This document shows, one piece after another, positions 1,776 to 16,123 of a stretch of 16,123 bases of DNA. The notes below the pieces were generated by a model, which was not told the DNA's origin, did no database searches, and was given only the letters and a program-made list of their open reading frames with translations. Position numbers and translations under genes: made by a program. This stretch comes from Acidimicrobiia bacterium (GTDB taxonomy: Bacteria; Actinomycetota; Acidimicrobiia; Acidimicrobiales; Acidimicrobilacustridaceae), in the NCBI GenBank assembly GCA_018882825.1, contig VERC01000020.1, forward strand, positions 1-16,123, given 5' to 3'. Each line of letters starts with the position of its first letter. Within the stretch, counting starts at the first letter, position 1.

Positions 1776-2615
1776 ATGGCGCGGTCGGTGCAGACGACGG
1801 TGGGCTGGATCTTCTGGGACCCCGGCGCGGTCGAGCGGTACGCCGCGCTGGGGATCCCCGAGGCCTTCGCGTCGCCGGGTGGCTACATCGCCACCCGGGC
1901 TGCGCCGCTCGCCCCGGCCGGCCCCGAGGCCGTGATCGCCGCCTTCGGATCGATCTCCCCCGCCGGCATCCGCGCCGTGTTCGACGTCGTCGGCGACCCG
2001 GTGCGATTCCTCGACTTCTGGCACGCCCGCGACGAGGCGATCGTCGCGGGCCTCCACCTTCACGCCCCCGACATCGTCGAGCCGTTGCGCGAGTTCGGCC
2101 CCGATCTGTGGGCCGTGGTGGAACGACTGCCGCTCACCGGGCGGGTGCTGTTCGGCGCCGTGCGCGCCATGCCTCGCCCCTACGATCCGCTGTTGTCCGG
2201 TTGGCATGCGGTGAACGCGTTGCGCGAATGGCGTGGCGACACGCACTGGGCGGTGACCGTGGCTGCCGGTCTCGATCACGCCGAGGCGTCGATCCTGCAC
2301 AACGCGTGGCTCGGGTACGAGAGCGACTGGTTGGCGCTGTCGCGTGGCACTGCGCCCGCGGACATCGAGGCGGGGTGGTCCGCGTTGTCGGCGCGCGGAC
2401 TGGCGGTGGACAGAGCGGTCACCGAGGAGGGCCTCGCCCTGCGCCAACGGATCGAGGACGACACCGACCGACTCACCGTCCTGCCCTGGCACCTCCTCGG
2501 CCCCGAGCGGACCGACACACTCGTCGAACTTCTCGAACCCCCGTGCACGCTCCTGCTGGAACGCGTCGACGTCACCGCCGGACCGAACTACCAGCCCGGC
2601 TCACGGGTGCGCTGA
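1776..2615 (+). CDS. SCO6745-family protein (function unknown)
   Basis: A 279-residue soluble protein. The N-terminal stretch TTVGWIFWDPGAVERYAALG, the GYIATRAAPLAPAGPEAVIAAFGS region, and the later LLSGWHAVNALREWRGDTHWAVTVAAG and LHNAWLGYES segments match the layout of the actinobacterial SCO6745 family, which carries a winged-helix-like fold but has no settled biochemical role. No signal peptide or membrane segment is seen. The ATG at 1776 is the first in-frame ATG after the thiolase stop and gives a family-typical N-terminus, but it has no clear Shine-Dalgarno sequence, so translation may depend on coupling to the thiolase gene 44 bases upstream. It ends 19 bases before the end of the convergent NTF2-like gene, with no obvious hairpin between. 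Confidence 0.75.
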   Translation: MARSVQTTVGWIFWDPGAVERYAALGIPEAFASPGGYIATRAAPLAPAGPEAVIAAFGSISPAGIRAVFDVVGDPVRFLDFWHARDEAIVAGLHLHAPDIVEPLREFGPDLWAVVERLPLTGRVLFGAVRAMPRPYDPLLSGWHAVNALREWRGDTHWAVTVAAGLDHAEASILHNAWLGYESDWLALSRGTAPADIEAGWSALSARGLAVDRAVTEEGLALRQRIEDDTDRLTVLPWHLLGPERTDTLVELLEPPCTLLLERVDVTAGPNYQPGSRVR

Positions 2616-2634
2616 CGACCGCAGCGCCGCCGAC

Positions 2635-2964
2635 TCAGTGATCGGCGACGAAGTAGGTCAGCGAACGGATGTGCTCGCCCTCGACCACGAACAGGTCGAC
2701 GACGTGGAGCACGTCACCACTGGCCAGCGATATCTCGATCTCGGCCGCCACCCGCTCGCCGGCCACCAGCAGCGGACCGCACTGCCGGGGCTGCGGCCTC
2801 GATGCATCGATCGACGCGCCGTAGAACTCGGCGATGGCTTCACGCCCGGAGACGACGGTGCCGAGCCCGATCAGTCGGGCATCGTCGTGGAACAGTTCGA
2901 CGACGTCGAGGTCGCCGGCGCGCATGCAGGCGAAGTAGCGCTCGACGACCTCGACCGGCGTCAT
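2635..2964 (-). CDS. Small NTF2-like (SnoaL/ketosteroid-isomerase fold) protein
   Basis: A 109-residue protein with the NTF2-like pattern: an N-terminal helix pair (MTPVEVVERYFACMRAGDLD), the short acidic segment VVELFHDDARLIGLGTVVSG, then REAIAEFYG and alternating strands to the end (DVLHVVDLFVVEGEHIRSL). Members act as isomerases, cyclases or ligand-binding subunits; no specific active site can be assigned here. The ATG at 2964 lies 4 bases after the ilvD stop codon, so it is almost certainly translated in the same operon as ilvD, perhaps by re-initiation. That placement does not itself imply a role in branched-chain amino-acid synthesis. Confidence 0.85.
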   Translation of the reverse strand: MTPVEVVERYFACMRAGDLDVVELFHDDARLIGLGTVVSGREAIAEFYGASIDASRPQPRQCGPLLVAGERVAAEIEISLASGDVLHVVDLFVVEGEHIRSLTYFVADH

Positions 2965-2968
2965 CGAC

Positions 2969-4828
2969 TCAGCGGCGCTGCAGTTGGGTGACGTCGCGCA
3001 CGGCGCCGGTGGCGGCCGAGGTGGTCATGGCGGCATAGGCCTGCAGGGCCGGCGACACCTGCCGGGTGCGCACCTCCGAGGGCGTCCACGCCGCCGCGCC
3101 CCGGGCCTCCTCGGCGACGCGTCGCTCGGCGAGAGTGGCATCGTCGACGTCGAGCGAGATCGACCGGGTGGGGATGTCGATGGTGATGGTGTCGCCGTCG
3201 TGCACCAGGGCGATGAGACCTCCCTCGGCCGCCTCGGGCGACACGTGTCCGATCGACAGCCCGGAGGTGCCTCCGCTGAATCGACCATCGGTGAGCAGCG
3301 CGCAGGCCTTTCCGAGCCCGCGGGCCTTGATGTAGGAGGTCGGGTACAGCATCTCCTGCATGCCCGGGCCGCCCTTGGGTCCCTCGTAGCGGATCACCAC
3401 GACCTCACCGGGTCGGATCTCGTCGGCGAGGATCGCCTCCACGGCGGAGTCCTGACTCTCGAAGACACGGGCCGGACCGGAGAACCGGAACAGCTCCTCA
3501 TCGACACCGGCGGTCTTGACGATGCACCCGTCGACGGCCACGTTGCCGTAGAGCACGGCCAGTCCACCCTCGACGGTGTAGGCGTTGTCGATCGAGCGGA
3601 TGCAGCCAGCGACGCGGTCGGTATCGTGCGAGGGCCAACGGGTGTCCTGACTGAACGCCACCTGCGTGGGGATGCCGGCCGGACCGGCGAGCCAGAAGTG
3701 CCTGGCCTCATCGGTGCACGTCGGCCTCACCAGATCCCACTGATCGAGCGCCGCCCGCATCGACGGACTGTGCACCGTGGGCAGCGACGAGTCGATGAGT
3801 CCGGCGCGGTCGAGTTCGCCGAGGATGCCCGGGATACCACCGGCCCGGTGCACGTCCTCGATGTGGTACTGCTCGGTGGCCGGCGACACCTTGCAGATGT
3901 TGGGCACGCGCCGACTCAACGCGTCGATGTCGGCCATGGTGAAGTCGACACCGCCCTCCTTGGCCGCCGCGAGGATGTGCAGCACGGTGTTGGTGGAACC
4001 ACCCATGGCGATGTCGAGCGCCATGGCGTTGGTGAACGCCGCCTTGGTGGCGATGGAACGGGGCAGGACACTGTCGTCGTCGTTCTCGTAGTGACGACGG
4101 GCGAGGTCGACGACGAGACGACCCGCCTCCTTGAACAGTCGCTCGCGATCGGCGTGGGTGGCGACGATGGTGCCGTTGCCCGGCAATGACAGACCGAGCG
4201 CCTCGGTGAGGCAGTTCATCGAGTTGGCGGTGAACATGCCCGAGCACGAACCACACGTCGGACAGGCCGACCGCTCGATGTCGGCCACCTCCTCGTCGGT
4301 GTAGGCGTCGTCGGCGGCCTTGACGATCGCCGAGATGAGGTCGACCTTGACCTCGTTGCCGGCCAGGCGCGTCTTGCCCGCCTCCATCGGTCCCCCGGAG
4401 ACGAACACGGCGGGGATGTTGAGTCGCATGGCAGCGATGAGCATGCCCGGCGTGATCTTGTCGCAGTTGGAGATGCACACCATCGCGTCGGCGGTGTGAG
4501 CGGTGACCATGTACTCCACCGAGTCGGCGATGAGATCGCGACTGGGAAGGCTGTAGAGCATCCCGTCGTGACCCATGGCGATGCCGTCGTCGACGGCGAT
4601 GGTGTTGAACTCCTTGGCCACACCACCGGCCGCCTCGATCTCGCGGGCCACGAGTTGGCCCAGATCCTTGAGATGCACGTGACCGGGCACGAACTGCGTG
4701 AACGAGTTGCACACGGCGATGATCGGCTTCTCGAAATCACCATCGGTCATGCCGGTGGCGCGCCACAGCGCACGGGCTCCAGCCATGTTGCGGCCCTGGG
4801 TGGATGTGTGGGATCGATAGGTCGGCAT
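2969..4828 (-). CDS. ilvD: Dihydroxy-acid dehydratase
   Basis: A 619-residue IlvD, which dehydrates 2,3-dihydroxy-3-methylbutanoate (or -pentanoate) to the keto acids that precede valine, isoleucine, leucine and pantothenate. Key residues fall almost exactly on E. coli numbering: Asp81 (metal), Cys122 and Cys195 (iron-sulfur ligands, in CISNCDK and CPTCGSC), Asp123, Lys124 (the carboxylated lysine), Glu492 in GGPGMQEM and Ser518 in GRFSGGTSG. All are intact. The ATG at 4828 gives [22 protein letters not shown], a standard N-terminus; the frame stays open further upstream to 5029 but that stretch overlaps the neighbouring gene and is not family-like. No Shine-Dalgarno sequence is seen, but TAGCGT lies 7 bases before the ATG, suggesting a leaderless mRNA. 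Confidence 0.97.
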
Positions 4829-4835
4829 GGCCAGA

Positions 4836-4841
4836 ACGCTA
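4836..4841 (-). promoter_or_regulatory. Putative -10 element for leaderless ilvD mRNA
   Basis: Read on the minus strand, TAGCGT (TANNNT type) is followed by exactly 7 bases and then the ilvD ATG, which would place the transcription start at or next to the start codon. There is no purine-rich ribosome site between. The -35 region is not recognisable. The element lies in the 71-base gap after the Coq4-like gene, so ilvD could be transcribed both from here and by read-through. Confidence 0.45.
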
Positions 4842-4899
4842 GTGCCGCGTCGCGCGCCAGCGCCCACCACCCCGCAACGGTCGAAGCACTCACCCGGGT

Positions 4900-5880
4900 T
4901 CAGAGGTCGACGTCGATGACCTCCGGGAACGGATCCCGCGGCGGCAGGACACCGAAACGCTGACGCAATTCGGCGATGGGTCGATCGGCGAGGTCGAGGA
5001 GGCTGACCGCGTTGTAGTTCGACGTGCACCGGGTTCCGCGCAGGAACGACTCCACCATCAGTTCGATCGTCCCCTCCCGCTCCAGCACGCCCTCCTTCGA
5101 GACGAAGTCCGCCGCGCCGAACACGCCGAGTTCGTAGGCGGCGAGACCGGCGACGAACTGCATCCAGTGGGCCTCGTTGTCCTCCATTCCCAACTGGAAA
5201 GCGGTCAGTGCGATCTCTCCGGGTGCACTCGGACCGAGTCCGGCGACGAGGTGACTCATGTCGTGCTGGAGGAAGAACGCGGGATGCGCCACACCCTCGC
5301 CGGGGATCTTGAAGCGGTTCTCCAGGTAGAACTCGATGTACTCACGTCCGAGCGTCCCGCGGGAGAGGTCGCGCATGGCCCGCAGCCGCCGAGCGAGGTC
5401 GGGATCGTCGATGGCGTCGTCGATCCCCTCGAACCGAGCCAGCACCGCCGGCTCACTGAGTCGATCACGACCTCTGTCCCATGCCTGCCGGAAGTGCTCG
5501 AGGGCCTGGGTCGTCTCGTCGCGCACCACCCCCCGGACGAGCCGGAGCCCCTCGTCGTCACCGCCGAGCGCCAGGGCGAACCCGTCGACCAGCAGGACCT
5601 GCTCGTCCGTCTGGGGGTGGCGCATGACCTCGAACAGCACGAGCATCTGACGGAGCCGCCACGCCGCCACCTCGTCATCGAACAACTGCGCCACTTCGAT
5701 CGGGCTGATGATGGGCAGTGAGTCCAGATCGAGGTCGTTGCGCAGCCACACCGATGTCGCCAGCAGTTGGAACAGCCGTCGCTGCTCGGGAGTTCCGCCG
5801 TCGCCGGTGTCGATCGCCGTGCGGATCACGCGTGCGGCGGGATGGACGAGATCGGACCGACCATTGAGGGTCACGCTCAT
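4900..5880 (-). CDS. TerB-like/Coq4-like two-domain protein
   Basis: A 326-residue soluble, alpha-helical protein with no signal peptide or membrane segment. Residues about 60-120 ([20 protein letters not shown], then [21 protein letters not shown]) look like a TerB-type helical domain with a DG turn. Residues about 174-250 look like Coq4: [17 protein letters not shown], then H206-D207-x2-H210-x11-E222, exactly the HDxxHx11E metal motif of Coq4, within [18 protein letters not shown] and [12 protein letters not shown]. Coq4 acts in ubiquinone synthesis, but actinobacteria make menaquinone, so the role here is unknown. I chose the ATG at 5880 because TACCCT lies 7 bases upstream (leaderless pattern); a GTG at 5910 would add 10 residues. 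It is divergent from the amidohydrolase gene and upstream of ilvD. Confidence 0.75.
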
Positions 5881-5887
5881 GAGCCGC

Positions 5888-5893
5888 AGGGTA
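5888..5893 (-). promoter_or_regulatory. Putative -10 element for leaderless Coq4-like mRNA
   Basis: On the minus strand TACCCT is followed by 7 bases and the ATG at 5880, with no Shine-Dalgarno sequence between. This supports the inner ATG as the start over the GTG at 5910, which would lie upstream of the promoter. No convincing -35 is seen. Confidence 0.4.
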
Positions 5894-5992
5894 GACCGCG
5901 ATTCCGCCACGGGAGCGGCGACCCGACGTCGAGTCCGGTTCGCACGCCGGACCGACCGACTCGCACCAGGAGCTCCAGGGCCCTCGGTGCCC

Positions 5993-6046
5993 TAGTGTCG
6001 CCCTCCGAGGGTCCGCCCCACGGACCGACCCCGACCGCCGGAGGAG
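5993..6046 (+). promoter_or_regulatory. Leader of the amidohydrolase gene: possible -10, short hairpin, strong RBS
   Basis: TAGTGT at 5993-5998 is a possible -10 box; a start near 6005 would give a leader of about 46 bases. Within it GGTCCG (6010-6015) and CGGACC (6021-6026) can pair as a 6-bp hairpin with a 5-base loop. GGAGGAG at 6040-6046 is a strong Shine-Dalgarno sequence 4 bases before the ATG and fixes the start. The hairpin does not cover the RBS, so a switch is not indicated. The -10 call is weak. Confidence 0.4.
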
Positions 6047-6050
6047 ACCG

Positions 6051-7271
6051 ATGGCTCAGCCCAACTACACGATCATCTCGGCCGACTGTCACGCCGGCGG
6101 AAGCCACGAGCAGTACCGCGAGTACCTCGACCCCGAGTGGCGCGACGAGTTCGACGCGTGGCGCGGCCAGTACAAGAACCCGTGGAAGGACCTGCGCGAC
6201 ACCGATCTGCGCATCCGCAACTGGGACGACGATCGTCGTGACGCCGACCAACTGTCCGACGGTGTCGTGGCCGAGGTCGTCTACCCCAACACCGTGCCGC
6301 CGTTCTATCCCGGCTTCGTGCTGTTCGCCGGCCCGCCCACGGCGGAGGACTACGCCAAGCGCCGGGCCGGCATCCACGCCCACAACCGGTGGATGGTCGA
6401 CTTCTGTGCGCGCCAGCCCGAGCGACGCGCCGGCATCGGCCAGTTCTTCCTCAACAACATCGACGATGCGCTGGCCGACATCCGGTGGATCGCCGAACAG
6501 GGTCTGCGCGGCGGCGTGCTGTTGCCGAGCGTGGCCCCCGACGTGAAGTGGATCAAGCCGCTCTACGACCCCTGCTACGACCCGATCTGGGCGGCGTGCC
6601 AGGACCTCGACCTCGTGGTGAACCTGCACTCGGGCACCGGCTCTCCCGACTACGGGCGCTACGCCGTCACGCCGATGCTGATGATCAGCGAGGTGGCGTT
6701 CTACGGCCAGCGGGCCTTCGCCCACCTGCTGCTGTCGGGCGTGTTCGAGCGGTTCCCCAAGCTCAAGTTCGCCATGACCGAGGGTTCGGCCGCCGGCATC
6801 GTGGCGCTGGTCGACCAACTCGACCCGGTGATCAAGAGGGTCAACTCGGGTGAGATCGGCGAGTTGAAGTACACGCAGGAGAACGGCCTGCCCAAGCTCG
6901 CCAGCGAGTACTTCGCCCAGAACTGCTGGATCGGTGCCAGTTTCCCCAACGTCCCGGACGTGGAGACGCGCAAGCGTCTCGGCCCCGACCGGTTCATGTG
7001 GGGCTCGGACTACCCCCACGACGAGGGGACGCCCCCGTTCACCCGGGAACACCTCCGCCAGGTGTTCCCCGGCGTCGGCGTGACCGAGATGCGTCGGATC
7101 CTCGGCGAGAACGCCGCCAAGCTCTACAAGTTCGATCTCGACGCGCTCGCCCCGCTCGCCGCACAGTACGGGCCCACCGTCGAAGAACTCTCCGAGCCCC
7201 TCACCCGCTTGCCCGAAGGCGCCAACGAGGCGCTCCTGCGAGCCGACGAGTACCTGCGCAAGTCGGCCTGA
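6051..7271 (+). CDS. Amidohydrolase 2 family metal-dependent hydrolase (TIM barrel)
   Basis: A 406-residue protein of the amidohydrolase-related family that includes ACMSD-type decarboxylases and hydratase-like enzymes. The metal site is visible: Asp12-x-His14 at the end of the first strand (ISADCHAG), His193 in VVNLHSGTG, and Asp320 in MWGSDYPHDEGTP. Members hydrolyse or decarboxylate ring or amide substrates; the SDYPH-D-G form is common in actinobacterial proteins tied to degradation of lipids, sterols and aromatics, but no substrate can be named. There is no signal peptide, so it is cytoplasmic. The start is fixed by GGAGGAG just upstream. The gene is monocistronic: a 13-bp hairpin terminator follows 23 bases after the stop, and a tRNA gene faces it. 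It is divergent from the Coq4-like gene. Confidence 0.93.
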   Translation: MAQPNYTIISADCHAGGSHEQYREYLDPEWRDEFDAWRGQYKNPWKDLRDTDLRIRNWDDDRRDADQLSDGVVAEVVYPNTVPPFYPGFVLFAGPPTAEDYAKRRAGIHAHNRWMVDFCARQPERRAGIGQFFLNNIDDALADIRWIAEQGLRGGVLLPSVAPDVKWIKPLYDPCYDPIWAACQDLDLVVNLHSGTGSPDYGRYAVTPMLMISEVAFYGQRAFAHLLLSGVFERFPKLKFAMTEGSAAGIVALVDQLDPVIKRVNSGEIGELKYTQENGLPKLASEYFAQNCWIGASFPNVPDVETRKRLGPDRFMWGSDYPHDEGTPPFTREHLRQVFPGVGVTEMRRILGENAAKLYKFDLDALAPLAAQYGPTVEELSEPLTRLPEGANEALLRADEYLRKSA

Positions 7272-7294
7272 GCGACCGAGGCGACCGCACGCGG

Positions 7295-7327
7295 AGGGGC
7301 CCGGCACCTGGTGCCGGGCCCCTCGTT
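7295..7327. terminator. Intrinsic terminator hairpin between amidohydrolase and tRNA-Ala
   Basis: AGGGGCCCGGCAC (7295-7307) and GTGCCGGGCCCCT (7311-7323) form a perfect 13-bp, GC-rich stem with a CTG loop, followed on the plus strand by CGTTCGTTCCT, which is T-enriched but not a clean T run. It lies between the amidohydrolase stop and the 3' end of the convergent tRNA, so it could end transcription of both. On the minus-strand side no T run follows, making it better suited to the plus-strand gene. Confidence 0.8.
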
Positions 7328-7335
7328 CGTTCCTG

Positions 7336-7412
7336 TGGTGGAGGTGAGGAGAATCGAACTCCCGACCTCTACGTTGCGAACGTAGCGCTCTAGCCAACTG
7401 AGCTACACCCCC
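7336..7412 (-). tRNA. tRNA-Ala (anticodon CGC)
   Basis: The minus strand folds as a full 77-base tRNA including an encoded 3' CCA. The acceptor stem GGGGGTG pairs with CACCTCC and contains the G3:U70 wobble pair, the alanine identity element. The D arm (GCTCAGTTGGCTAGAGC), anticodon stem CTACG/CGTAG around the loop TTCGCAA (anticodon CGC, reading GCG) and T arm (GGGAGTTCGATTCTCC) are all standard. The 3' end abuts the terminator hairpin shared with the amidohydrolase. It lies 56 bases downstream of the GlpR-like gene on the same strand and has its own likely promoter. Confidence 0.97.
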
Positions 7413-7424
7413 GCAGGGGCCGTC

Positions 7425-7430
7425 AATGTA
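7425..7430 (-). promoter_or_regulatory. Putative -10 box of the tRNA-Ala promoter
   Basis: On the minus strand TACATT lies 12 bases before the mature 5' end of the tRNA, a distance that would give a primary transcript with a 5' leader of only a few bases. No strong -35 is recognisable 17-18 bases further up. The tRNA could also be co-transcribed with the GlpR-like gene that ends at 7469. Confidence 0.4.
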
Positions 7431-7468
7431 CCGGACCGGGACGAACCGGTGAGAATCGCCGATGCGGT

Positions 7469-7984
7469 TCAGTTACCGCCGACGACATACATACGGCGTT
7501 GGGGCTCCTCGTCGACGATGCCGTCGATCACGTCGTCGTGCTGCGGGATCACGGTGGGGAGGGGCCGCACCTTCGCGCGGCGCTCCAACTTTCGCTTCTG
7601 CGCGTCGACGAGCAGGGCCACGTAACCGACGAGGGCGCCGACACAGAGCAGGAACAGCAGCCACATGACGCCACCGGCCAGCATCGCCAGCAGGAACGTC
7701 GCGCCCGTGGCCCCGGCCGTGCCGAAGAGCACGTCACGACGTCGCTTCTTCTGGGGGGACAGTTGGGGTCGGACCGGGGCGAAGTACTGCCCATTGCCGA
7801 GCGGGGCCGACCGGGGTGCCACCGGAACCGCCGGCGCCTCGGGGTTGGTGCGGCCGAGAATGGAGAGGTGGGTCGAGAACGAGTTGATGGAGTTCACCCG
7901 ACGGGCGGAGGAACGGTTCTTGATCCACGAGACGAGGTAGACGGCCCACACCACGGCGAGGACGAACAGCACGAGGAACGTCAT
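7469..7984 (-). CDS. GlpR-like membrane protein (receptor of a gephyrin-like MoeA paralogue)
   Basis: A 171-residue membrane protein: helix 1 at about residues 2-20 (LVLFVLAVVWAVYLVSW), a cytoplasmic segment with RRVNSINSFSTHLSILGR at 28-45, a basic stretch KKRRR at 79-83, a helical hairpin at about 86-127, and a charged tail rich in acidic residues. This order (one N-terminal helix, an SxxSFxxxLxxL segment, RRR, two helices, basic stop) is the plan of actinobacterial GlpR, the membrane partner of the MoeA-like protein Glp that links gephyrin-type proteins to FtsZ in Corynebacterium. Identification is by layout and the short motif, so moderate. The start at 7984 is set by a near-perfect AAAGGAGGT; a longer frame to 8083 is rejected. 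The neighbours moaC (upstream) and, 7 kb away, moeA fit a MoeA link. Confidence 0.6.
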   Translation of the reverse strand: MTFLVLFVLAVVWAVYLVSWIKNRSSARRVNSINSFSTHLSILGRTNPEAPAVPVAPRSAPLGNGQYFAPVRPQLSPQKKRRRDVLFGTAGATGATFLLAMLAGGVMWLLFLLCVGALVGYVALLVDAQKRKLERRAKVRPLPTVIPQHDDVIDGIVDEEPQRRMYVVGGN

Positions 7985-7990
7985 GGGGGT

Positions 7991-7999
7991 ACCTCCTTT
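7991..7999 (-). promoter_or_regulatory. Strong Shine-Dalgarno sequence that sets the GlpR-like start
   Basis: On the minus strand AAAGGAGGT ends 6 bases before the ATG at 7984. It is the best match to the 16S rRNA tail in the window and places the start 33 codons inside the longest open frame. Confidence 0.85.
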
Positions 8000-8043
8000 G
8001 CGGGCAGGAACGGGCGGAGAGGGGAACCTTCCCGCCCGGACGA

Positions 8044-8066
8044 ACGTTACGGTTCTACTACAGAAC
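8044..8066 (-). promoter_or_regulatory. Possible promoter with inverted repeat upstream of the GlpR-like gene
   Basis: GTTCT-ACTAC-AGAAC (8052-8066) is a perfect 5-base inverted repeat with a 5-base spacer. On the minus strand it is immediately followed by TAACGT (8049-8044), a TANNNT -10 candidate, so the repeat would lie in the spacer between -35 and -10. The -35 hexamer (CCGGAC) is poor. It lies in the 198-base gap after moaC, where I see no gene. Confidence 0.3.
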
Positions 8067-8182
8067 GTCCGGCCCTCACCCATTCGAGGGACGTTGCGAG
8101 ACGATCGTCACAGCCGTGGACCCGACCAGCGCGGGCAGCATGCCGAACCATCATCGTCCCGATACCGCCGAACAGGGCGGGC

Positions 8183-8728
8183 TCAGAGCAGGTCGTCGCC
8201 CAACTCGCCGGTGAAGGGCTCACCGAGGACCTCGTCGCCGAGCACGGCGTCGGGATCGCGCCGGTAGGGTCCCGAACGTCCTCCGGTCTTCTCCCACAGG
8301 GCGAGGTCCCCGATCACCATCGACCGATCGGAGGACTTGCACATGTCGTAGATGGTCAGTGCCGCCACCGAGCATGCGGTGAGGGCCTCCATCTCCACGC
8401 CGGTGCGGTCGACGGTCTCCACCTGGGTCTCGATCTCGATGAAGTCGTGGCCGATGTGGAAGTTCACGTGCACCGAACCCACCAGCAGCGGATGGCACAG
8501 CGGGATGAGGTCCGGGGTGCGCTTGGCCGCCTGGATGCCGGCCACGCGGGCCACGGCCAGCACGTCACCCTTGGTGATGGCTCCCCGGGCCACCAGCGAG
8601 GCGGTCTCCGGGTCCATGTGCACACGGCCCTTGGCGATGGCCCGCCGGTGGGTGGCGTCCTTGGGGGTGACGTCGACCATCCGCGCCCGGCCCAGTGGAT
8701 CGAGGTGACTGAGGCCGCGATCGGTCAT
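8183..8728 (-). CDS. moaC: Cyclic pyranopterin monophosphate synthase MoaC
   Basis: A 181-residue MoaC, which converts the 3',8-cyclo-GTP product of MoaA into cyclic pyranopterin monophosphate, the second half of step one of molybdenum-cofactor synthesis. Family motifs are all present: LSHLDPLGRARMVDV near the start, IPLCHPL with His79, GVEMEALTACSVAALTIYDMCK with Asp128 and Lys131, and WEKTGGRSG with Lys147; the last three fall on E. coli active-site numbering. The protein is some 20 residues longer than E. coli MoaC, with an acidic C-terminal tail (DEVLGEPFTGELGDD). There is no Shine-Dalgarno sequence; TAGACT lies 6 bases before the ATG, suggesting a leaderless transcript. It is divergent from the cupin gene and about 5.5 kb from moaA. 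Confidence 0.96.
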   Translation of the reverse strand: MTDRGLSHLDPLGRARMVDVTPKDATHRRAIAKGRVHMDPETASLVARGAITKGDVLAVARVAGIQAAKRTPDLIPLCHPLLVGSVHVNFHIGHDFIEIETQVETVDRTGVEMEALTACSVAALTIYDMCKSSDRSMVIGDLALWEKTGGRSGPYRRDPDAVLGDEVLGEPFTGELGDDLL

Positions 8729-8732
8729 CCTG

Positions 8733-8844
8733 TCAGTCTACGACCCGACCGGGCCAAGGGCCCGGTGCGACGAACCGGGGGCATCGATCCGCCGACCACG
8801 GCGAGAAGGTGGTCGGCAGGGCCCGGCACCGCCCGACAGACTGA
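8733..8844. promoter_or_regulatory. Divergent moaC/cupin promoter region with mirrored start leaders and a hairpin
   Basis: The two divergent genes begin with nearly the same leader: on the minus strand TAGACT-GACAGG-ATG (moaC) and on the plus strand CAGACT-GAGCCG-ATG (cupin). The shared AGACTGA forms a 7-base inverted repeat (8733-8739 and 8838-8844). Each hexamer is 6 bases from its ATG, as expected for a -10 box of a leaderless mRNA. Between them ACCGGGCC-AAG-GGCCCGGT (8748-8766) is a perfect 8-bp inverted repeat that could be an operator or hairpin. No clear -35 boxes. Confidence 0.45.
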
Positions 8845-8848
8845 GCCG

Positions 8849-9832
8849 ATGACCACCTCCGAGAAGGCAACGGTCGAGTTGGTGATGGGCGGCATCGCCG
8901 TCGACATCGACGACGACGACTGGTCGGGCGAGGCCCGCTACTTCGAGTACTCGCGGGCCGCCAACCCCGTCGGCTCGGGGCGCGTCCCGCCGCTGCCCAT
9001 GGAGCGGTTCCCGGCCGGACGTCATCGCGCGATCACCACCGGCATCGTGCCGTTCGATCTCTCCGAGGCGCTGGGCACGTCGACACCGGCCACGTCACCG
9101 GCACTGCTGGCGGCGTTCATCCGCATCGCCCCCGGTGACACCGTGGAGACGGCCCCGGTGGCCACCTCGGAGCTGTACTGCGTGATCGCCGGGGAGGGCT
9201 CGTCCATCATCGACGGGCGCGAGCTGCGGTGGGCGACCGGTGACTTCTTCGTGCTCCCGGCGAACTGCCGCACCGTCCATCGGGCCACGACCGACACGAC
9301 GCTGTACTGGGTGACCGACGAACCGCTGCTGCGTCACCTGGGTGTGGCGCCCACCGAGCAACGCTTCGCCCCCACTCGGTTCCCGGCCGAGCGACTGCGG
9401 GCGGAGTTGGCCGACGTCGAACACTCGCCGCGGGCCACTGACCGCAACCGTCTGTCGGTGCTGCTCAACACGGTGCCCAACGACATGACCCAGACGGTGA
9501 CCCACGTGCTGTGGGCCATGTACGGGTTGGTGCCGGTCGGCACCGTGCAACGACCGCATCGTCACCAGTCCGTCGCTCTCGATCTCGTCGGTCAGTGCGC
9601 ACCGGGATGCTTCACGCTCGTGGGCCGTTCGATCGACGAGGACGGCGAGATCATCGACCCCATCCGCGTCGACTGGGAACCGCAAAGCGCCTTCGTCACG
9701 CCGCCGGGACTGTGGCACGCCCATCACAACGAGTCGGGTGAACCGGCGTGGATCATCCCCATCCAGGACGCCGGACTGCACAGTTACCTGCGGACGCTGG
9801 ACATCCGGTTCGCCCCGCCCCGCCGGACCTGA
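8849..9832 (+). CDS. Bicupin protein of the gentisate 1,2-dioxygenase type
   Basis: A 327-residue protein with two cupin domains, the architecture of gentisate and 1-hydroxy-2-naphthoate dioxygenases. The first cupin spans about residues 85-155 (ELYCVIAGEG, then WATGDFFVLPANCRTVHRA); the second about 225-310 (PHRHQSVALDLVG with His237 and His239, then TPPGLWHAHHNES with His290, His292 and His293). The first cupin lacks the HxH metal motif that these ring-cleaving enzymes normally carry there, while the second keeps a full histidine set, so any iron would sit in the C-terminal cupin. Ring cleavage is therefore possible but unproven; a sugar- or regulatory-type cupin is an alternative. The ATG at 8849 is chosen because it begins a sensible N-terminus and has a -10-like CAGACT 6 bases upstream. 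The open frame upstream to 7499 is spurious. Confidence 0.78.
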   Translation: MTTSEKATVELVMGGIAVDIDDDDWSGEARYFEYSRAANPVGSGRVPPLPMERFPAGRHRAITTGIVPFDLSEALGTSTPATSPALLAAFIRIAPGDTVETAPVATSELYCVIAGEGSSIIDGRELRWATGDFFVLPANCRTVHRATTDTTLYWVTDEPLLRHLGVAPTEQRFAPTRFPAERLRAELADVEHSPRATDRNRLSVLLNTVPNDMTQTVTHVLWAMYGLVPVGTVQRPHRHQSVALDLVGQCAPGCFTLVGRSIDEDGEIIDPIRVDWEPQSAFVTPPGLWHAHHNESGEPAWIIPIQDAGLHSYLRTLDIRFAPPRRT

Positions 9833-9928
9833 TCGGCGATCGCACGCCGGAACTGAACCGGGTCGTCGAGCGACTCTCCCTGAGCATGCGCAGACGTGCA
9901 TGGCGTTCCGAGCCAGGAGGATTCCCCG

Positions 9929-10693
9929 ATGTCCGCCCCGACCCCCCGTGTGCGGGCCCGCCGACGACCCATGGTCGCCGTCGCCATCGCCGCTGCTCTG
10001 CTGTTGATCACCGCCGTCCCGGCTGGCGCCCACGCTGGCTTCAAGGCGTACTCCTCATTCGGATTCGCGCCGAATCCGAATGGAGGGTCGAACGCCGCCT
10101 CGGGCGATCAGGCCACTCCTCCCTACGAGGCGGGGACATCGGTGCAGATGGCGATGCGCGCCGCCGTCGAGGTCCCGGCCGGCCAGACATGGGATCCGGC
10201 CCTGCACAGCAACGTCGACATGAAGGTCACCGTCCCCGGAGGGTGGACCGACGCCACATGTGGCAGCGCCCATCTTCAGGTCAACGACGGTTCGACGAAC
10301 AGCACCAACCAACCGGGCCCCGCAGCGGCCGGTTGGCAGTGCGAGACCTACTCGAGCATGGGGCGGACCGTCATCCACTTCTGGGGTCCACCACTGACAG
10401 CCGGTGGTGACCAGTCGGACGCAGCGCAGTACTTCGTGTTCTCGGTGACAACGCCGACGCCCTCGGTGCAGACGACGTACGGAGAAGGCGGGACCGAGGG
10501 TTTCACCGCCGACCAGCAGTACGCCGACGGACGCGTCTCGCACTGGTACCCGAGCGCCGACTGGGTCGGGACCTATCCGCCCGGGGCGGAACCGACCACA
10601 CCGGCCGGGGGGCTGCGACGTACCGTCGCCGCATTCGTGCCGGCACCACCCGGGCCGGCGCCCGAACCCACTCCCCCGCACTTCGCCGGTTGA
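9929..10693 (+). CDS. Exported YcnI-like (DUF1775-type) protein, candidate copper binder
   Basis: A 254-residue secreted protein. Residues 1-34 are a Sec signal peptide (RARRR, hydrophobic core MVAVAIAAALLLITAV, then PAGA), and cleavage after Ala34 would leave His35 as the mature N-terminus (HAGFKAYSSFG). YcnI proteins bind Cu(II) through this N-terminal His with help from a conserved Trp; here YADGRVSHW places Trp206 in the matching place. Two Cys (in DATCGSAH and WQCETY) may form a disulfide. The C-terminus is Pro-rich (PAPPGPAPEPTPPHFAG) with no membrane anchor. The ATG at 9929 is fixed by AGGAGGA at 9915-9921. The next gene, a second YcnI-like protein with an anchor, starts 10 bases after the stop, so the pair is an operon. 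This copy is the more divergent of the two. Confidence 0.75.
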   Translation: MSAPTPRVRARRRPMVAVAIAAALLLITAVPAGAHAGFKAYSSFGFAPNPNGGSNAASGDQATPPYEAGTSVQMAMRAAVEVPAGQTWDPALHSNVDMKVTVPGGWTDATCGSAHLQVNDGSTNSTNQPGPAAAGWQCETYSSMGRTVIHFWGPPLTAGGDQSDAAQYFVFSVTTPTPSVQTTYGEGGTEGFTADQQYADGRVSHWYPSADWVGTYPPGAEPTTPAGGLRRTVAAFVPAPPGPAPEPTPPHFAG

Positions 10694-10703
10694 GGGGCTG
10701 ACG

Positions 10704-11447
10704 ATGACTCGATGGTCGAGGCGAGCGGCGACCGCGGCGGCCACGGTCGCCGTCGCCTGGGTCACCATCGGTGGCGCGACGGGCGTGGCCTCGGCCCACG
10801 CCGAGTTCCAGGAGTCGACGGTGATCGCGGGTTCGACGACGACGCTCACGCTGGACGTGCCCAATGAGCGACCCGCACCCCGCTACACCACGACGGTTCG
10901 GATCCAGATCCCTGCCGGCTGGTCGGCGATGGGCTGCACCCAGCCCGCGGGCTGGACCTGCACGGCCGGGAGCGGAGAGATCGCGTTCCAGTTCGCTGGA
11001 GGCCCCCGACAGGAGGCGTTCTCGTTCACCCTCCGCGCCCCCGAATCAGCACGCACGTCGACCTTCCCGGTGGTGCAGATCTACGACAACGCGGAGAACG
11101 TCCTGTGGTCCGATACCGCGATCCTGCGTGTGGCGGTCGATCCCAGTCCCGCGCCTTCGCCACCGACGTCGGCGCCGGCACCCGGCCCGCCGACCTCCGT
11201 GGCTCCCGGGTCCACTCGACCGGCCGACGCCGGCACCGCCGACGCTTCGCAAACGGGTGAGTCGCCGACCACGGCGTCGGCGACGGCCGCTCCTGATGGC
11301 TCCGCCACATCGGCTGGAGGTGGTGAGGTGACCAGCCCGCGAGCGACCGAGTCGAACGGTGGATCGCCGATCGTCCCAGTGATCCTCGGAGTGACCGCGG
11401 TGCTGGTCATGGGCGGCGTGATCGCGCTCATTCGTCGGCGCACCTAG
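10704..11447 (+). CDS. Membrane-anchored YcnI-family (DUF1775) protein, candidate copper binder
   Basis: A 247-residue exported protein. Signal peptide 1-31 ends in VASA, giving a mature N-terminus at His32 (HAEFQES). Residues 32-145 form the DUF1775 domain: LTLDVPNERPAP, then VRIQIPAGW, the FSFTLRAPESA strand, and QIYDNAENVLW with Trp135, the likely second copper-site residue. Residues about 148-220 are a Pro/Ala/Ser/Thr-rich, wall-spanning linker, followed by one membrane helix (PIVPVILGVTAVLVMGGVIALI) and RRRT on the inside. Thus the copper-site domain is held outside the membrane. GAGGGG upstream supports the ATG at 10704, 10 bases after the preceding YcnI-like gene. Its TAG stop overlaps the stop of the convergent anti-sigma-like gene within the palindrome CTAG. 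Confidence 0.88.
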   Translation: MTRWSRRAATAAATVAVAWVTIGGATGVASAHAEFQESTVIAGSTTTLTLDVPNERPAPRYTTTVRIQIPAGWSAMGCTQPAGWTCTAGSGEIAFQFAGGPRQEAFSFTLRAPESARTSTFPVVQIYDNAENVLWSDTAILRVAVDPSPAPSPPTSAPAPGPPTSVAPGSTRPADAGTADASQTGESPTTASATAAPDGSATSAGGGEVTSPRATESNGGSPIVPVILGVTAVLVMGGVIALIRRRT

Positions 11448-12055
11448 ACGGACCGGAGCGGCTCCGTCGTTGCGTCACGATCACGAAGACCGGCGCGGGT
11501 CAGGACCCAGACGGCAGCGACGCTGACCAGTTCCGGTGCATGGATCGCCTCGTGCACCAGCGGCACGTGGCCCTCCACCACGTCGATGGTGGCGGTGATC
11601 GCCAGCGCGCAACTCACCACGATCGCCACCGGCAGGACGGTTCGGGCCCGCGACGGGCGAATCACGACGACGACCAGCGCCGCGCCGTAGGCGAGGGTGA
11701 ACGCGCCGAGATGTCGTGCATCGTGCACGTCACCGACACCGCTCCCGAGGAGGTCGGAGACCGAGGATGCGACCACCCACAGCGCACAGATGGCCAGTAC
11801 GACCCGAGCCAGGCTCAATGTCCACATACCGTCGAGAGACCGCGAGCGACGCACGACCTGCGCGGACACGTCCACGTTCTCGCCGGCCACGCCGATCGAG
11901 CGTCGGCGTAGTCGATGGACGAAGTCCGAGTGCGACTCGCAGTCCGGGCACTGCTGAAGATGCTCCCTGAGGTCCGCGTCGTCGAGTCGGGTGTCCTCGC
12001 CATCGACCTGCGCGCTGATCGCCTGCTGGACCGAGGAGCACGTCACCGGTGCCAC
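11444..12055 (-). CDS. Zinc-finger membrane anti-sigma factor-like protein
   Basis: A 203-residue protein. The N-terminal domain carries H32-x3-C36-x2-C39 (REHLQQCPDCES), the zinc-associated anti-sigma signature (zf-HC2), preceded by Cys6. Four hydrophobic helices follow at about 80-100, 116-132, 139-160 and 174-188. With the zinc domain inside, the basic loop RPSRART is cytoplasmic and two loops face outside: GVGDVHDARH (His111, His115) and EGHVPLVHEAIHAPE (His163, His168, His172). It would hold the divergent ECF sigma factor inactive until a signal is sensed; clustered outside histidines suggest a metal ligand. The start is a GTG at 12055 preceded by GGGAGGGGG; the frame open further upstream overlaps the sigma gene and is rejected. 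Target assignment rests on being back to back with the sigma gene. Confidence 0.8.
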   Translation of the reverse strand: MAPVTCSSVQQAISAQVDGEDTRLDDADLREHLQQCPDCESHSDFVHRLRRRSIGVAGENVDVSAQVVRRSRSLDGMWTLSLARVVLAICALWVVASSVSDLLGSGVGDVHDARHLGAFTLAYGAALVVVVIRPSRARTVLPVAIVVSCALAITATIDVVEGHVPLVHEAIHAPELVSVAAVWVLTRAGLRDRDATTEPLRSV

Positions 12056-12095
12056 GATCCCCCTCCCTCGTTCGGCTGCTGGGCGACCATCAGGC

Positions 12096-12102
12096 AATGA
12101 TA
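12096..12102. promoter_or_regulatory. Shared back-to-back -10 element for sigma and anti-sigma-like genes
   Basis: The seven bases AATGATA read as AATGAT on the plus strand, 6 bases before the sigma GTG (a leaderless layout), and as TATCAT on the minus strand, a 5/6 match to TATAAT, about 40 bases before the anti-sigma-like GTG. The intergenic region is only 52 bases, so both promoters must overlap here and use of one could exclude the other. No clear -35 or ECF-type (GGAAC...CGT) promoter is visible, so autoregulation by the sigma factor cannot be shown. Confidence 0.4.
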
Positions 12103-12107
12103 GGGAG

Positions 12108-12635
12108 GTGTCCACCGGCGACCCCCTCCTGCCCTTGCTACTGGCGGCTCGAGAGGGGAACGACGTAGCCCTGTCGGAACTCGTGCGGCGCACCCAGCCC
12201 GTGCTGTGGCGGGTGTGCCGTGACCTCGGCACCGATGGCGATGCCGCCGACCTCGTGCAGGAGACCTACGAACGGATGTTGCGGGCCATGCACGGCTACG
12301 AGGGACGGGCCCCGGTCCGGCCCTGGTTGCTGAGGATCGCGCGCAACGTGTGCGCCGACGCCGTGCGTCGGAACCAACGACGCCGTCGGTTGATCGAGCG
12401 AGCGGCGGCATCGCTCGAACCGGAGGGTCGCGAGATCGCAGATCGATCGATCGCGCCGCTGGTGGCCGCACTGGATCGGGACCGCTTCGAGGCGTTCGTG
12501 CTCACCCAACACGTCGGTCTGAGCTACGAGGAGGCTGCACAGGTGTTGAACTGCCCTGTGGGCACGATCAGGTCCCGGGTGTCCCGGGCGCGGTCCGACC
12601 TGCGCGCGGCGCTGCGGGCAGCGGACTCTGCCTAG
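12108..12635 (+). CDS. ECF RNA polymerase sigma factor (SigC-like)
   Basis: A 175-residue group-4 (ECF) sigma factor with only regions 2 and 4. Region 2, about residues 9-92, includes the region 2.2 core-binding pattern DAADLVQETYERMLRAMHGY and the region 2.3-2.4 segment RPWLLRIARNVCADAVRRNQRRRR. Region 4, about 115-170, contains LTQHVGLSYEEAAQVLNC and GTIRSRVSRARSDLR, the helix-turn-helix that reads the -35. There is no C-terminal extra domain. The first usable start is GTG at 12108; GGGAG abuts the codon too closely to be an RBS, and AATGAT lies 6 bases upstream, so the mRNA is probably leaderless. It is divergent from the anti-sigma-like gene and near the two YcnI-like genes, which are plausible targets. 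It ends 3 bases from the stop of a convergent NTF2-like gene. Confidence 0.92.
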   Translation: MSTGDPLLPLLLAAREGNDVALSELVRRTQPVLWRVCRDLGTDGDAADLVQETYERMLRAMHGYEGRAPVRPWLLRIARNVCADAVRRNQRRRRLIERAAASLEPEGREIADRSIAPLVAALDRDRFEAFVLTQHVGLSYEEAAQVLNCPVGTIRSRVSRARSDLRAALRAADSA

Positions 12636-12638
12636 TTC

Positions 12639-13106
12639 TCAGTCCGAGGCAAAGACGTCGAACGAACCGAGCACGGCGCGCGAGTCCTTGAGCCGGTGCA
12701 CGATGAGCCACTGCCCGTCGATGCGTCGCCATGTGTCGTGGTACTCCCCCAACGTGGAGAACGTGGTCGTGGCGTGCGCGCCGGTGCCGAGGTGCATGTC
12801 GCTCACGTAGGCGTGGCTCACCGCGGTGTCGACGTCGACGTCGACCACGATGTTGCCGAGCAGGTGCTGGGTGGGACCGCACACGTCGAGGAACTCACGG
12901 ATCGACTCGACGATCCGATCGGCGCCGACCTCGGGTCCGCGACCGAACTCGGCCTCGGCGTCGTCGGCCAGCAACGTGCGCACCACCACCCAGTCCCGGG
13001 CGTCCATGCCCCGGGCGAAGGCCATGAGTCGCCGAGCGATGTCGCGCTCGTCGAGCAATCGGGTCAGCAGCGCCGCGGGATCACCTTCGGGTCGTTCGTG
13101 GGCCAT
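12639..13106 (-). CDS. NTF2-like (SnoaL-type) protein
   Basis: A 155-residue soluble protein of the NTF2-like fold in its longer form. The pattern is LLDERDIARRLMAFARGMDARDWVVVRTLLADDAEAEFG at the start (helices and the first strand, with Asp35, Asp38 and Asp49-50 in the pocket region), then IVESIREFLDVCGPTQHLLGNIVVDVD, and late strands with YHDTWRRIDGQWLIVHRLKD. Members include dehydratases, isomerases and ring-hydroxylating dioxygenase beta-like subunits. No substrate can be given. It lies 37 bases downstream of the TauD/TfdA-type gene on the same strand and may be its operon partner. No strong Shine-Dalgarno sequence precedes the ATG. Confidence 0.85.
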   Translation of the reverse strand: MAHERPEGDPAALLTRLLDERDIARRLMAFARGMDARDWVVVRTLLADDAEAEFGRGPEVGADRIVESIREFLDVCGPTQHLLGNIVVDVDVDTAVSHAYVSDMHLGTGAHATTTFSTLGEYHDTWRRIDGQWLIVHRLKDSRAVLGSFDVFASD

Positions 13107-13143
13107 GCCCCATCATCGCCCGCCGATCGGCAATCCGTCTCGC

Positions 13144-14040
13144 TCAGTGCGGGCGCTCGCCGCGCAACGACACCCGTTGGATGACCCGCCGGGCATCGCC
13201 GTAGTCACCCACCACCGAGTGCTGGGTCACGCGGTTGTCCCAGAAGGCGATGTCGCCCGGCGTCCAGTGGTGACGAACCACGAATTCGGGACGCACCGAA
13301 TGCGTGTAGAGGAACGACAGCAACATCGCGCTCTCGTCAGGATGCAAGCCCTCGACGTGCGAGGTGAACCCGGGATTCACGAACAGGGCGCGCTCGCCCG
13401 TCTCCGGATGGACGCGCACGACGGGATGGCGGACTGGTTCCAGAGACGACAGCACCTCGCCCTCCCACTCCCCGCCGCCGTCGCGCCGGGCCAACTGCGC
13501 GCCGAATGCCGCTCGGCCGTCGTGGACGGCCGTCAGCGTGGCGAGGTAGCCCTGCAGTGAGGGGCTGAGCGCGGCGAGGGCCGCCACCTGGTCCGACCAC
13601 ATCGTGTCGCCACCGGATGGCGGAATCACCACGGCGTTCAGGATCGATGCCGATGGTGGTCGCTCGACGAAGGTGACATCGGTGTGCCAGTCCAAGCCTG
13701 CACTCCGGGTGGCGACATCGCCGTAGTGGGCGTAGACCTCGCGAGACGCCGAGTAGTCGATCTCGAACACGCTCGGATGGCCCTCGACACCCCCGAGCAC
13801 GGGATGGCCGGGGGTGAGCTCACCGAAGCGGGAGGCGAACCGCTCGTGCTGCTCGGTGGTGAGATGCTGAGACCGGAAGAACACCACCCGCCGCTCCAGC
13901 CAGACCCGACGGATCGCCGCCACCGTGTCGTCATCAAGTTCGACCGACAGGTCCACCCCGGCGATCTCCGCCCCGATCGTTCCCGACAGCGGACGGACGT
14001 CGAGGTCGACCGACGGCCGCGACCGTTCGGTGAGGGTCAC
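13144..14040 (-). CDS. TauD/TfdA-family Fe(II)/2-oxoglutarate-dependent dioxygenase
   Basis: A 298-residue non-haem iron dioxygenase. The facial triad is visible: His119 and Asp121 in GLDWHTDVTF and the distal His274 in WDNRVTQHSVVGDY. Arg285 in RRVIQRV would bind the 2-oxoglutarate carboxylate and Arg289 may contact substrate, as in TauD. Ends such as LDVRPLSGTIGAEIAGVDLS at residues 13-32 are the standard opening of this family. Members oxidise taurine, alkyl sulfates, 2,4-D or similar; the substrate cannot be inferred. The start is GTG at 14040, and it overlaps the TGA of the upstream 46-codon frame in the four bases GTGA, so translation is probably coupled. It is followed by an NTF2-like gene. 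Confidence 0.92.
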   Translation of the reverse strand: MTLTERSRPSVDLDVRPLSGTIGAEIAGVDLSVELDDDTVAAIRRVWLERRVVFFRSQHLTTEQHERFASRFGELTPGHPVLGGVEGHPSVFEIDYSASREVYAHYGDVATRSAGLDWHTDVTFVERPPSASILNAVVIPPSGGDTMWSDQVAALAALSPSLQGYLATLTAVHDGRAAFGAQLARRDGGGEWEGEVLSSLEPVRHPVVRVHPETGERALFVNPGFTSHVEGLHPDESAMLLSFLYTHSVRPEFVVRHHWTPGDIAFWDNRVTQHSVVGDYGDARRVIQRVSLRGERPH

Positions 14041-14177
14041 AGCACACCGACGGCGGAGAGCACGAGAGCGATGGCGGCCGGAAGCATCGACAGCACCACC
14101 CAGATCGCCGTCGGACGGGGCGGGTCATCGGTGACGAGGAGATCCGGCTCGGCCCTGTCGGGAAAGTTGACCACCAT
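14037..14177 (-). CDS. 46-residue single-pass membrane microprotein upstream of the TauD-like gene
   Basis: A short frame read from the ATG at 14177 to the TGA at 14037. Residues 1-22 are hydrophilic and acidic (NFPDRAEPDLLVTDDPPRP) and 24-46 form one hydrophobic helix (AIWVVLSMLPAAIALVLSAV). Evidence for reality: TTGACA and CAGAAT at 18-base spacing lie upstream, with CAGAAT 7 bases from the ATG, so a leaderless mRNA would begin at this codon; and its stop overlaps the GTG start of the dioxygenase gene (GTGA). It could be a real membrane peptide or a coupling leader that controls dioxygenase translation. I know no family for it. Confidence 0.6.
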   Translation of the reverse strand: MVVNFPDRAEPDLLVTDDPPRPTAIWVVLSMLPAAIALVLSAVGVL

Positions 14178-14184
14178 GGTCGGG

Positions 14185-14214
14185 ATTCTGATCGCCCGGC
14201 CGGGACATTGTCAA
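14185..14214 (-). promoter_or_regulatory. Promoter of the microprotein/TauD-like/NTF2-like unit
   Basis: On the minus strand a perfect -35 TTGACA (14214-14209), an 18-base spacer and CAGAAT (14190-14185, 4 of 6 to TATAAT) lie in the 68-base gap after moaA. The -10 ends 7 bases before the ATG of the 46-codon frame, so the transcript would be leaderless. This is the best sigma-70-type promoter I see in the window and it separates the unit from moeA-moaA. Confidence 0.6.
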
Positions 14215-14245
14215 GTGATTCGGTGGAAATTGTCGTGTGGGGACC

Positions 14246-15253
<1,008 letters not shown>

Positions 15254-15262
15254 GGCGGCAGG

Positions 15263-16123
15263 CTACGGGCGCAGCAGGCGGACCCGCACGACGGTGCCGG
15301 CCTCGAGACTGTCGCCGTCGGGCAGTTCGGCCAGCGCATCGGCCGAGGCCATGGCCGCCATGTGGTGCGAGCCCTGGGCGCCGGCCGATCGCACGCGGTA
15401 GGTGCGGGTGGCGTGGTCCCACGCGCATCGCACTCGGGCGAAGTGGGTCTTGCCGTCGGGGCGCCGGCGCAACGGCTCGTCGAGCACGCCGTCGACGATC
15501 GGCCCGTCCAGGTCGGTGGCGCCGTGTCCACCCATGCGGCGCAGCCCGGGTCGACAGAACAGTTCGAAACTGACCATCGACGACACCGGGTTGCCGGGCA
15601 GACCGAACACAGGCACGCGTCCACCGTCGGCCCGGGCGATGGTGCCGAAGGCCAGGGGCTTGGCCGGTTTGATCGCCACCTGCATCCACCGCATGTCACC
15701 GATGCGGTCGAGCACGACCTTGACGTAGTCGAAGTCGCCCATGCTCACGCCACCGGTGGTGACCAGCGCGTCGGCCCTCTCCGCGCCGTCGCGCAGCACC
15801 GACTCGATGGCCGCTTCGTCGTCGGCCACCAGTCCGAGGTCGACGGTCTCGTACCCATAGGTGCGCAACAGCGCCAACAGCCCGAGTCGGTTCGAGTCGC
15901 GGATCTGTCCGGGACCGAGCGGTCGACCGTCACCCACCAACTCGTCACCGGTGGACACCACCGCCACCCGGGGGCGGGGCACCACGTCGAGTTCGGTGAC
16001 TCCCACAGTGGCCAGCACACCGAGATGGGCCGGACCGAGCAGCGTGCCGGCTGCCACCACGACGTCGCCGGGCACCACGTCGTCACCGGCGGGGCGGATG
16101 TGCTGCCCCGCGGTCGCCGCCGC
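15263..16123 (-). CDS. moeA: Molybdopterin molybdotransferase MoeA (gephyrin-like), N-terminus beyond the window
   Basis: The last 286 residues of a MoeA protein are present; the frame is open through the right edge. Seen from the edge: GQHIRPAGDDVVPGDVVVAA (domain 1/2 loop), RVAVVSTGDELV, GQIRDSNRLGLLALL, ALVTTGGVSMGDFDYVK (the MoCF/MPT-binding motif), IKPAKPLAFG and VFGLPGNPVSSMVSFELF, followed by the C-terminal beta-barrel domain 4. MoeA inserts molybdate into adenylated molybdopterin in the last step of cofactor synthesis. It precedes moaA by 9 bases. Actinobacteria often also have a MoeA paralogue, Glp, that works in cell division with GlpR; which of the two this is cannot be told without the N-terminus and the rest of the genome. 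The moaA linkage favours a cofactor role. Confidence 0.93.
   Translation of the reverse strand, partial: AAATAGQHIRPAGDDVVPGDVVVAAGTLLGPAHLGVLATVGVTELDVVPRPRVAVVSTGDELVGDGRPLGPGQIRDSNRLGLLALLRTYGYETVDLGLVADDEAAIESVLRDGAERADALVTTGGVSMGDFDYVKVVLDRIGDMRWMQVAIKPAKPLAFGTIARADGGRVPVFGLPGNPVSSMVSFELFCRPGLRRMGGHGATDLDGPIVDGVLDEPLRRRPDGKTHFARVRCAWDHATRTYRVRSAGAQGSHHMAAMASADALAELPDGDSLEAGTVVRVRLLRP

Follow-up and report, generated by a model that had tools for sequence, protein, structure and literature searches.

In this study, we analyzed a window of 16,123 nucleotides (bases 1-16123 of one contig in a draft genome of 2.25 Mb that is 80% complete) from a member of the Acidimicrobiia, in which four neighboring genes probably form a SigC-like copper-response switch together with its output. 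Two of them encode exported YcnI-fold proteins (P1 and P2), one a putative membrane anti-sigma factor and sensor (RSD), and one an extracytoplasmic function (ECF) sigma factor (SIG). The computed basis consists of gene content, linkage, a shared promoter, conservation of the ligands of P2, and the presence of the same motif before copper genes of relatives. The original prediction for this DNA had read the four genes as a copper circuit, and our analysis supported this reading.

Promoter motif and copper genes at RSD loci

The motif, GGGAAC followed after 17 bases by CGAC, was first spotted by eye in upstream regions and then tested on 77 non-repeated RSD loci. Counting on the RSD strand up to 220 bases before the gene, GGAAC-N17-CGAC was detected in 62 of the 77 loci (shuffled sequences: mean 0.26, maximum 2), the sites of L158, which lie slightly beyond, being scored as a miss. 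Spacings of 16 or 18 bases were found in 0/77 loci, and the SIG strand carried the motif in 1/77. With a matrix built on these 62 RSD sites, all of which lie in genomes outside the clade of the window, the site upstream of P1 scored 23.1 bits and the next best site in the window 7.6 bits. The exact form GGAAC-N17-CGACT occurs once in the window, with 0.07 matches expected, and 13 of 200 shuffles had one. The motif was also present upstream of P1 in L024, L025, L026, and L030, and where the assembly shows no linkage of P1 and P2 to RSD, the P1-P2 gap keeps it, exactly in genome G022 and with GGAC for CGAC in G006 (15.6 bits). As a control, 20 other ECF loci revealed the exact motif in one case. 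In all likelihood, the promoter used by the sigma family of SIG is present at the P1-P2 operon. It had been predicted that SIG drives the YcnI pair, and here the evidence in the DNA is direct, as P1 shares its bipartite promoter with the RSD genes of the family. SIG itself is nearly always without the motif, so the SIG/RSD pair appears to be wired for feedback via RSD and not via SIG; its loss before RSD in the clade of the window would then amount to a loss of this feedback. Back-to-back promoters with palindromic -35 boxes (GTTCCC...GGGAAC) were seen in the P1-P2 gap of three loci (L029:1790-1830, L030:5076-5144, and L025:9331-9399).

Altogether, 143 matches to the motif (CGAC then A, C, or T) were counted in 0.99 Mb, with 64 before RSD, 36 before YcnI, PCuAC, SCO1, or P1, two before WHDHR (see below) or TlpA, and 41 before no marker; for the 79 non-RSD matches, these 36 compare with 1.1 expected. 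When the frames up to 5 kb from RSD were clustered, RSD and SIG were followed, among leading families that also include antisense shadows, by an exported family (WHDHR), CopCD, YcnI, SCO1, PCuAC, and a cupredoxin-like lipoprotein, and Pfam confirmed the representatives of SCO1, PCuAC, CopC, CopD, and DUF1775. At least one of CopCD, YcnI, SCO1, PCuAC, cupredoxin-like, or P1 was located within 5 kb of RSD in 50/77 loci. DUF1775 was present in 32 of the 59 RSD-bearing genomes, with a copy within 5 kb of RSD in 20 (coordinate count). In family f69, which lies outside the class, each of the 12 loci collected had CopCD adjacent to RSD and the motif upstream of it; of the 20 loci in the phylum set, 14 carried the motif directly upstream of RSD and 13 had a copper marker nearby.

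Two protein families in these neighborhoods are as yet unnamed. The exported WHDHR..HWM family (L126:2213-3337 and similar), found within 5 kb of RSD in 30/77 loci, travels with RSD, CopCD, and YcnI and is a candidate copper protein; its representative gave no Pfam or NCBIfam match. The same holds for the representative of the small cupredoxin-like lipoproteins (L042:11846-12235), named by eye, which lie near SCO1 and, in 15/77 loci, near RSD.

Beyond the family, loci were collected by searches of the class and the phylum with RSD. In the class, 166 of 395 genomes matched at E<=1e-3, and 60 regions of 59 genomes were used, comprising the strongest new matches down to E 3e-19 (G114 skipped, G045 added later). 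In the phylum, 43 of 396 genomes matched at E<=1e-10, and 20 regions were used; this set omits 11 genomes outside the class whose match spans only about the first 100 positions. Before counting, nine repeat or near-repeat loci (L039, L040, L043, L044, L045, L051, L052, L054, and L055) and four weak family matches (L034, L035, L036, and L038) were removed. RSD was found in metagenome-assembled genomes titled Acidimicrobiaceae, Microthrixaceae, or Actinomycetota and in the isolate Desertimonas flava, whose locus L049 combines RSD with the motif, CopCD, and YcnI. SIG was matched at 76 of 86 RSD loci (repeats counted) and was not found at L041, L049, L053, L125, L127, L131, L141, L142, L144, and L150, some of which lie at contig ends. 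The record of L040 (CAMAYJ010000007.1) is titled Bifidobacterium breve, though its genes match G015 of the genus of the window, and the label looks wrong.

The four genes and their relatives

Table 1. Features of the proposed switch and its output in the window
Feature	Coordinates	Strand	Description
P1-P2 promoter, ECF-type	9849..9875	+	GGAAC-N17-CGACT
P1	9929..10693	+	exported YcnI-fold protein, mature N-terminus His35, C-terminus PHFAG
P2	10704..11447	+	YcnI/DUF1775, mature His32, C-terminal membrane helix
RSD	11444..12055	-	zf-HC2 domain and four transmembrane helices; putative membrane anti-sigma factor/sensor
RSD-SIG divergent spacer	12056..12107	.	short; without the GGAAC-N17-CGAC motif that most relatives carry here
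SIG	12108..12635	+	ECF sigma factor, nearest SigC/ECF36; 175 aa

As listed in Table 1, P1 and P2 lie on the same strand with a 10-base gap, P2 and RSD are convergent with overlapping stops, and RSD and SIG stand back to back with their starts about 50 bases apart (the start codon of RSD was picked by a GGAGG-like site). Thus, coordinates and domains agree with the predicted layout, in which two adjacent exported proteins, each with a mature N-terminal His, face a zinc-finger four-helix membrane protein whose gene diverges from that of an ECF sigma factor. Among 37 genomes of the family, P1 was present in 6, RSD in 13, and both in 5, and in 4 of those 5 the genes were clustered. The order P1 P2 RSD SIG was found in the window and in G015, and the order RSD SIG P2 P1 in G007 and G017. 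Further, the tail of P2 adjoins RSD at a contig end in G011, the two pairs are located on separate contigs in G006, and P1 and P2 are arranged head to head in G022, which had no RSD match. Conservation of the neighborhood across relatives, which had been proposed as a check, is therefore seen in the genus where P1 exists, and the SIG/RSD pair recurs more widely with YcnI, CopCD, PCuAC, and SCO1. The absence of a transporter alongside, described earlier as unusual, applies here but is a trait of a small clade, since many relatives have CopCD or SCO1/PCuAC in this place. The region is flanked by the molybdenum cofactor genes moaC and moaA and a moeA-like gene, the last of these named by eye, at 8186-8728 (-), 14249-15253 (-), and 15263-16078 (-), with no obvious link to copper.

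Both exported proteins had been called YcnI-like, which stands for the fold of both and, as to membership of DUF1775, for P2. P2 scored 48.9 bits with PF07987 (curated cut-off 25), and its H32, E55, and W135 correspond to His27, Glu50, and Trp137 of Bacillus subtilis YcnI, E55 being offset by +23 from the His as in YcnI. In 40 locus sequences including the window, H was conserved in 40, E in 22, and W in 40. P1 was assigned to the YcnI fold and scored 12.8 bits, below the same cut-off, and is therefore termed YcnI-like in fold and not a family member. Its H35, E81, and W206 are conserved, with E81 being only a candidate counterpart of YcnI Glu50, and only 26 relatives of P1 were found. In 23 of 29 rows of the P1 family, the C-terminus (10676-10690 in the window) ends exactly in F-T-G or F-A-G, usually as P-x-F-T/A-G, after a variable Thr/Pro linker, and this ending could serve in sorting or anchoring. 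Among other rows, tails of the SLH, calcium-binding-repeat, or LPxTG-like kind occur, one row looks frameshifted, and P1 of L026 has Fn3-like repeats (by eye).

RSD matched PF13490 (zf-HC2) with 34.1 bits and the RsrA model with 23.9 bits (cut-off 62.5); the Pfam scan revealed no PF10039 match in RSD itself. In its Hx3Cx2C zinc finger, H32, C36, and C39 are invariant in 47 homologues, as are H111, R114, H115, D158, E169, H172, and E175. In a wider set of 97 loci including distant members, H111 is conserved in 93, H172 in 97, D158 in 94, and E169 in 82. Prediction puts these residues at the N-terminal ends of helices 110-132 and 166-193 and at the C-terminal end of helix 134-161, and, by the positive-inside rule (R133, R136, and R138 between helices two and three), the cluster should face outside. 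We took this His/Glu cluster as a putative copper site. His and Met are abundant in the outer loop of four f83 members.

The top NCBIfam models for SIG were PRK12535 (115.5 bits) and SigC (113.1 bits), with the next at 86.3 bits and both top scores below the cut-offs of their models. Nevertheless, no other gene of its genome (G000, 80% complete) comes near SIG in the match to SigC, the scores being 111.5 bits for SIG vs 40.1 bits for the next. Of nine genomes tested, seven had their best SigC match, by a wide gap, in the RSD-adjacent gene; in the remaining two (f83, mycobacteria-like), an above-cut-off SigC was located about 11 and about 19 kb from an unfused RSD relative. Based on these matches and on the fused relatives described below, SigC is the nearest known relative of SIG, so that the parallel to SigC drawn in the original prediction holds.

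In four of the six f83 loci (L204, L207, L208, and L209), a single open frame encodes both RSD-type and SigC-type domains. According to Pfam and NCBIfam, the fusion in L207 and L209 is a protein of 457 residues with zf-HC2, a DUF2275 membrane domain, and a complete SigC (363 bits against a cut-off of 219), and the membrane parts of the fusions are homologous to RSD along its length (hhalign 99.4%, E 1.9e-21, 187 columns). The fused loci look mycobacterial, because CobK, PPE, or beta-lactamase genes flank them. CobK and PPE were named by Pfam in L207; by eye, CobK was recognized in the other fused loci and PPE in L204 and L208, and the beta-lactamase belongs to L209. The promoter motif of the RSD loci was identified before the PPE gene divergent from the fusion gene (L207:7654-7679 (-), L204:8300-8325 (+), and L208:8166-8191 (+)). 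The known target of SigC is the ppe1-nrp operon, and this arrangement is reminiscent of that control. Fusion of some ECF36 proteins to a DUF2275 anti-sigma domain, e.g., in Mycolicibacter heraklionensis, is described in PMC8999054.

Proposed mechanism and alternatives

We suggest that RSD holds SIG at the membrane via its zinc-finger domain and reads extracytoplasmic copper at the cluster of H111, H115, E169, H172, and E175, with D158, at the outer helix ends. The divergent arrangement of the two genes and the one-frame fusions of relatives are indirect hints that RSD may bind and inhibit SIG. When copper is short outside, RSD would free SIG, and SIG with RNA polymerase would transcribe P1-P2 from the promoter given in Table 1. 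Cu(II) would be bound by the N-terminal His of the secreted P1 and of the membrane-tethered P2 and might then be handed on to CopCD and to the assembly of cytochrome oxidase, the genes for which lie elsewhere. YcnI binds Cu(II) (PMC8424229), YcnI and YcnJ support growth of B. subtilis under copper limitation (PMC13344008; PMC12154828), and SigC of M. tuberculosis prevents copper starvation (PMC7924339). Of the two signs, a shortage of copper is the likelier trigger for freeing SIG, because the output genes serve uptake and delivery, YcnI and YcnJ aid copper-limited growth, and SigC counters starvation.

Several observations weigh against this interpretation. No exact motif lies before RSD in the window, in L024, L025, L026, and L027, and in 10 more of the 77 loci. 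In 27/77 loci, none of the listed copper markers was found within 5 kb of RSD, and the four fused loci and L206 were without the motif before RSD and, among the markers, had only SIG. A looser CGAC pattern with spacing 16-18 gave one match in the window vs 1.3 expected, i.e., chance level, so that the strength of the case comes from the comparison of loci; near-matches of 16-17 bits also occurred in 2 of the 20 control ECF loci (L215 and L222). H115 is H in 76/97 loci (else Glu or Asp), and E175 is E in 70/97. SIG reached 111.5-113.1 bits with the SigC model NF007231, below its cut-off of 219, and YcnI is described in PMC13344008 as secondary in copper import of B. subtilis.

The same circuit might work with the opposite sign, copper excess releasing SIG and P1-P2 mopping up extracellular copper. 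A metal sensor could in principle act in either direction, and YcnI may sequester Cu(II) and so limit its entry into the cell (PMC12154828), but the recurrent neighbor families are those of import and delivery (CopCD, PCuAC, SCO1, and YcnI), P-type ATPases, searched in 17 loci only, were strong in L054 (the query source) and L050 and weak in L043, and SigC of M. tuberculosis acts in starvation (PMC7924339), so that we consider this version unlikely. Similarly doubtful is a switch that reads, instead of copper itself, a defect of the copper-dependent respiratory oxidase or the thiol status during oxidase assembly, with the copper genes as outputs. Near RSD, SCO1 occurs in 16/77 loci, cupredoxin-like lipoproteins in 15/77, and TlpA-like thioredoxins in 12/77, and a CtaG assembly gene adjoins one RSD relative (L203), all of which would suit such a switch, as would SigC of Corynebacterium glutamicum, which reportedly responds to oxidase impairment. 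Against it, the conservation of the outer-face residues H111 and H172 (93/97 and 97/97 loci) fits a metal site.

For P1 alone, a role as a surface structural protein (an adhesin or S-layer part) that has only an Ig-like fold in common with YcnI is conceivable, albeit improbable. That the genes are chance neighbors and SIG controls something else, for which the separate pairs of G006 could be cited, is very hard to reconcile with the occurrence of all four genes together in two different orders and with a P1-P2 gap that retains the family motif, exactly or with one base off, even when unlinked. Copper shortage read by RSD remains our preferred signal for the release of SIG.

Significance and comparison with known systems

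Extracytoplasmic sensing of copper shortage in bacteria is poorly known, and how SigC senses it is a question left by the authors of PMC7924339. This question becomes directly testable, in harmless organisms, with a separate membrane partner that many actinobacteria conserve, that bears outer His/Glu residues, and that comes with an exact promoter and a clear link to copper; in addition, the P1 family and the two unnamed families are now tied to copper handling. Tentatively, and with rather less confidence than for the switch as such, we propose that RSD-type proteins are the ancestral SigC copper sensors of Actinomycetota, binding copper directly at H111/H115/E169/H172 and releasing the sigma factor when empty, that SigC of M. 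tuberculosis is derived and has lost its sensor, and that P1 is a secreted scavenger, the protein counterpart of a small-molecule chalkophore, beside the membrane-bound P2. DUF2275-fused ECF36 proteins are already published (PMC8999054). A literature search of limited scope revealed no report of P1, of the promoter, of a partner encoded separately in this branch, or of a link between RSD-type systems and copper, and no paper joining DUF1775 with an ECF sigma factor; the texts of PMC8103513 and PMC7406223 make no mention of copper or SigC.

Compared to zf-HC2 anti-sigma factors such as RsrA and other ZAS proteins, RSD shares the zinc finger but adds four transmembrane helices with the outer His/Glu cluster. 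CorE of Myxococcus xanthus is likewise an ECF sigma factor tied to copper (PMC8999054), but senses via its own C-terminal extension; SIG is without a Cys-rich extension of this type and ends 10 residues past its region 4 match (118-165 of 175). With YcnKJI of B. subtilis, the system has in common the YcnI fold and, in P2, the His/Glu/Trp copper ligands, whereas the YcnK repressor and YcnJ importer found there are replaced by an ECF switch and two YcnI-fold proteins with no adjacent importer. The fused loci identified here are homologous to RSD and resemble the published ECF36-DUF2275 fusions, while RSD is a separate divergent gene lacking a PF10039 match, and the available text of PMC8999054 gives no copper regulon or promoter. 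Closest is SigC of M. tuberculosis (ECF36), which acts in copper acquisition (PMC7924339), whose model is mostly best matched by the gene beside RSD, and whose ppe1-nrp target has a parallel in the motif before PPE at L207; SIG differs in staying under the SigC cut-off and in having a separate membrane partner, whereas section 2.8 of PMC7924339 describes sigC of M. tuberculosis as monocistronic and its anti-SigC factor as not identified.

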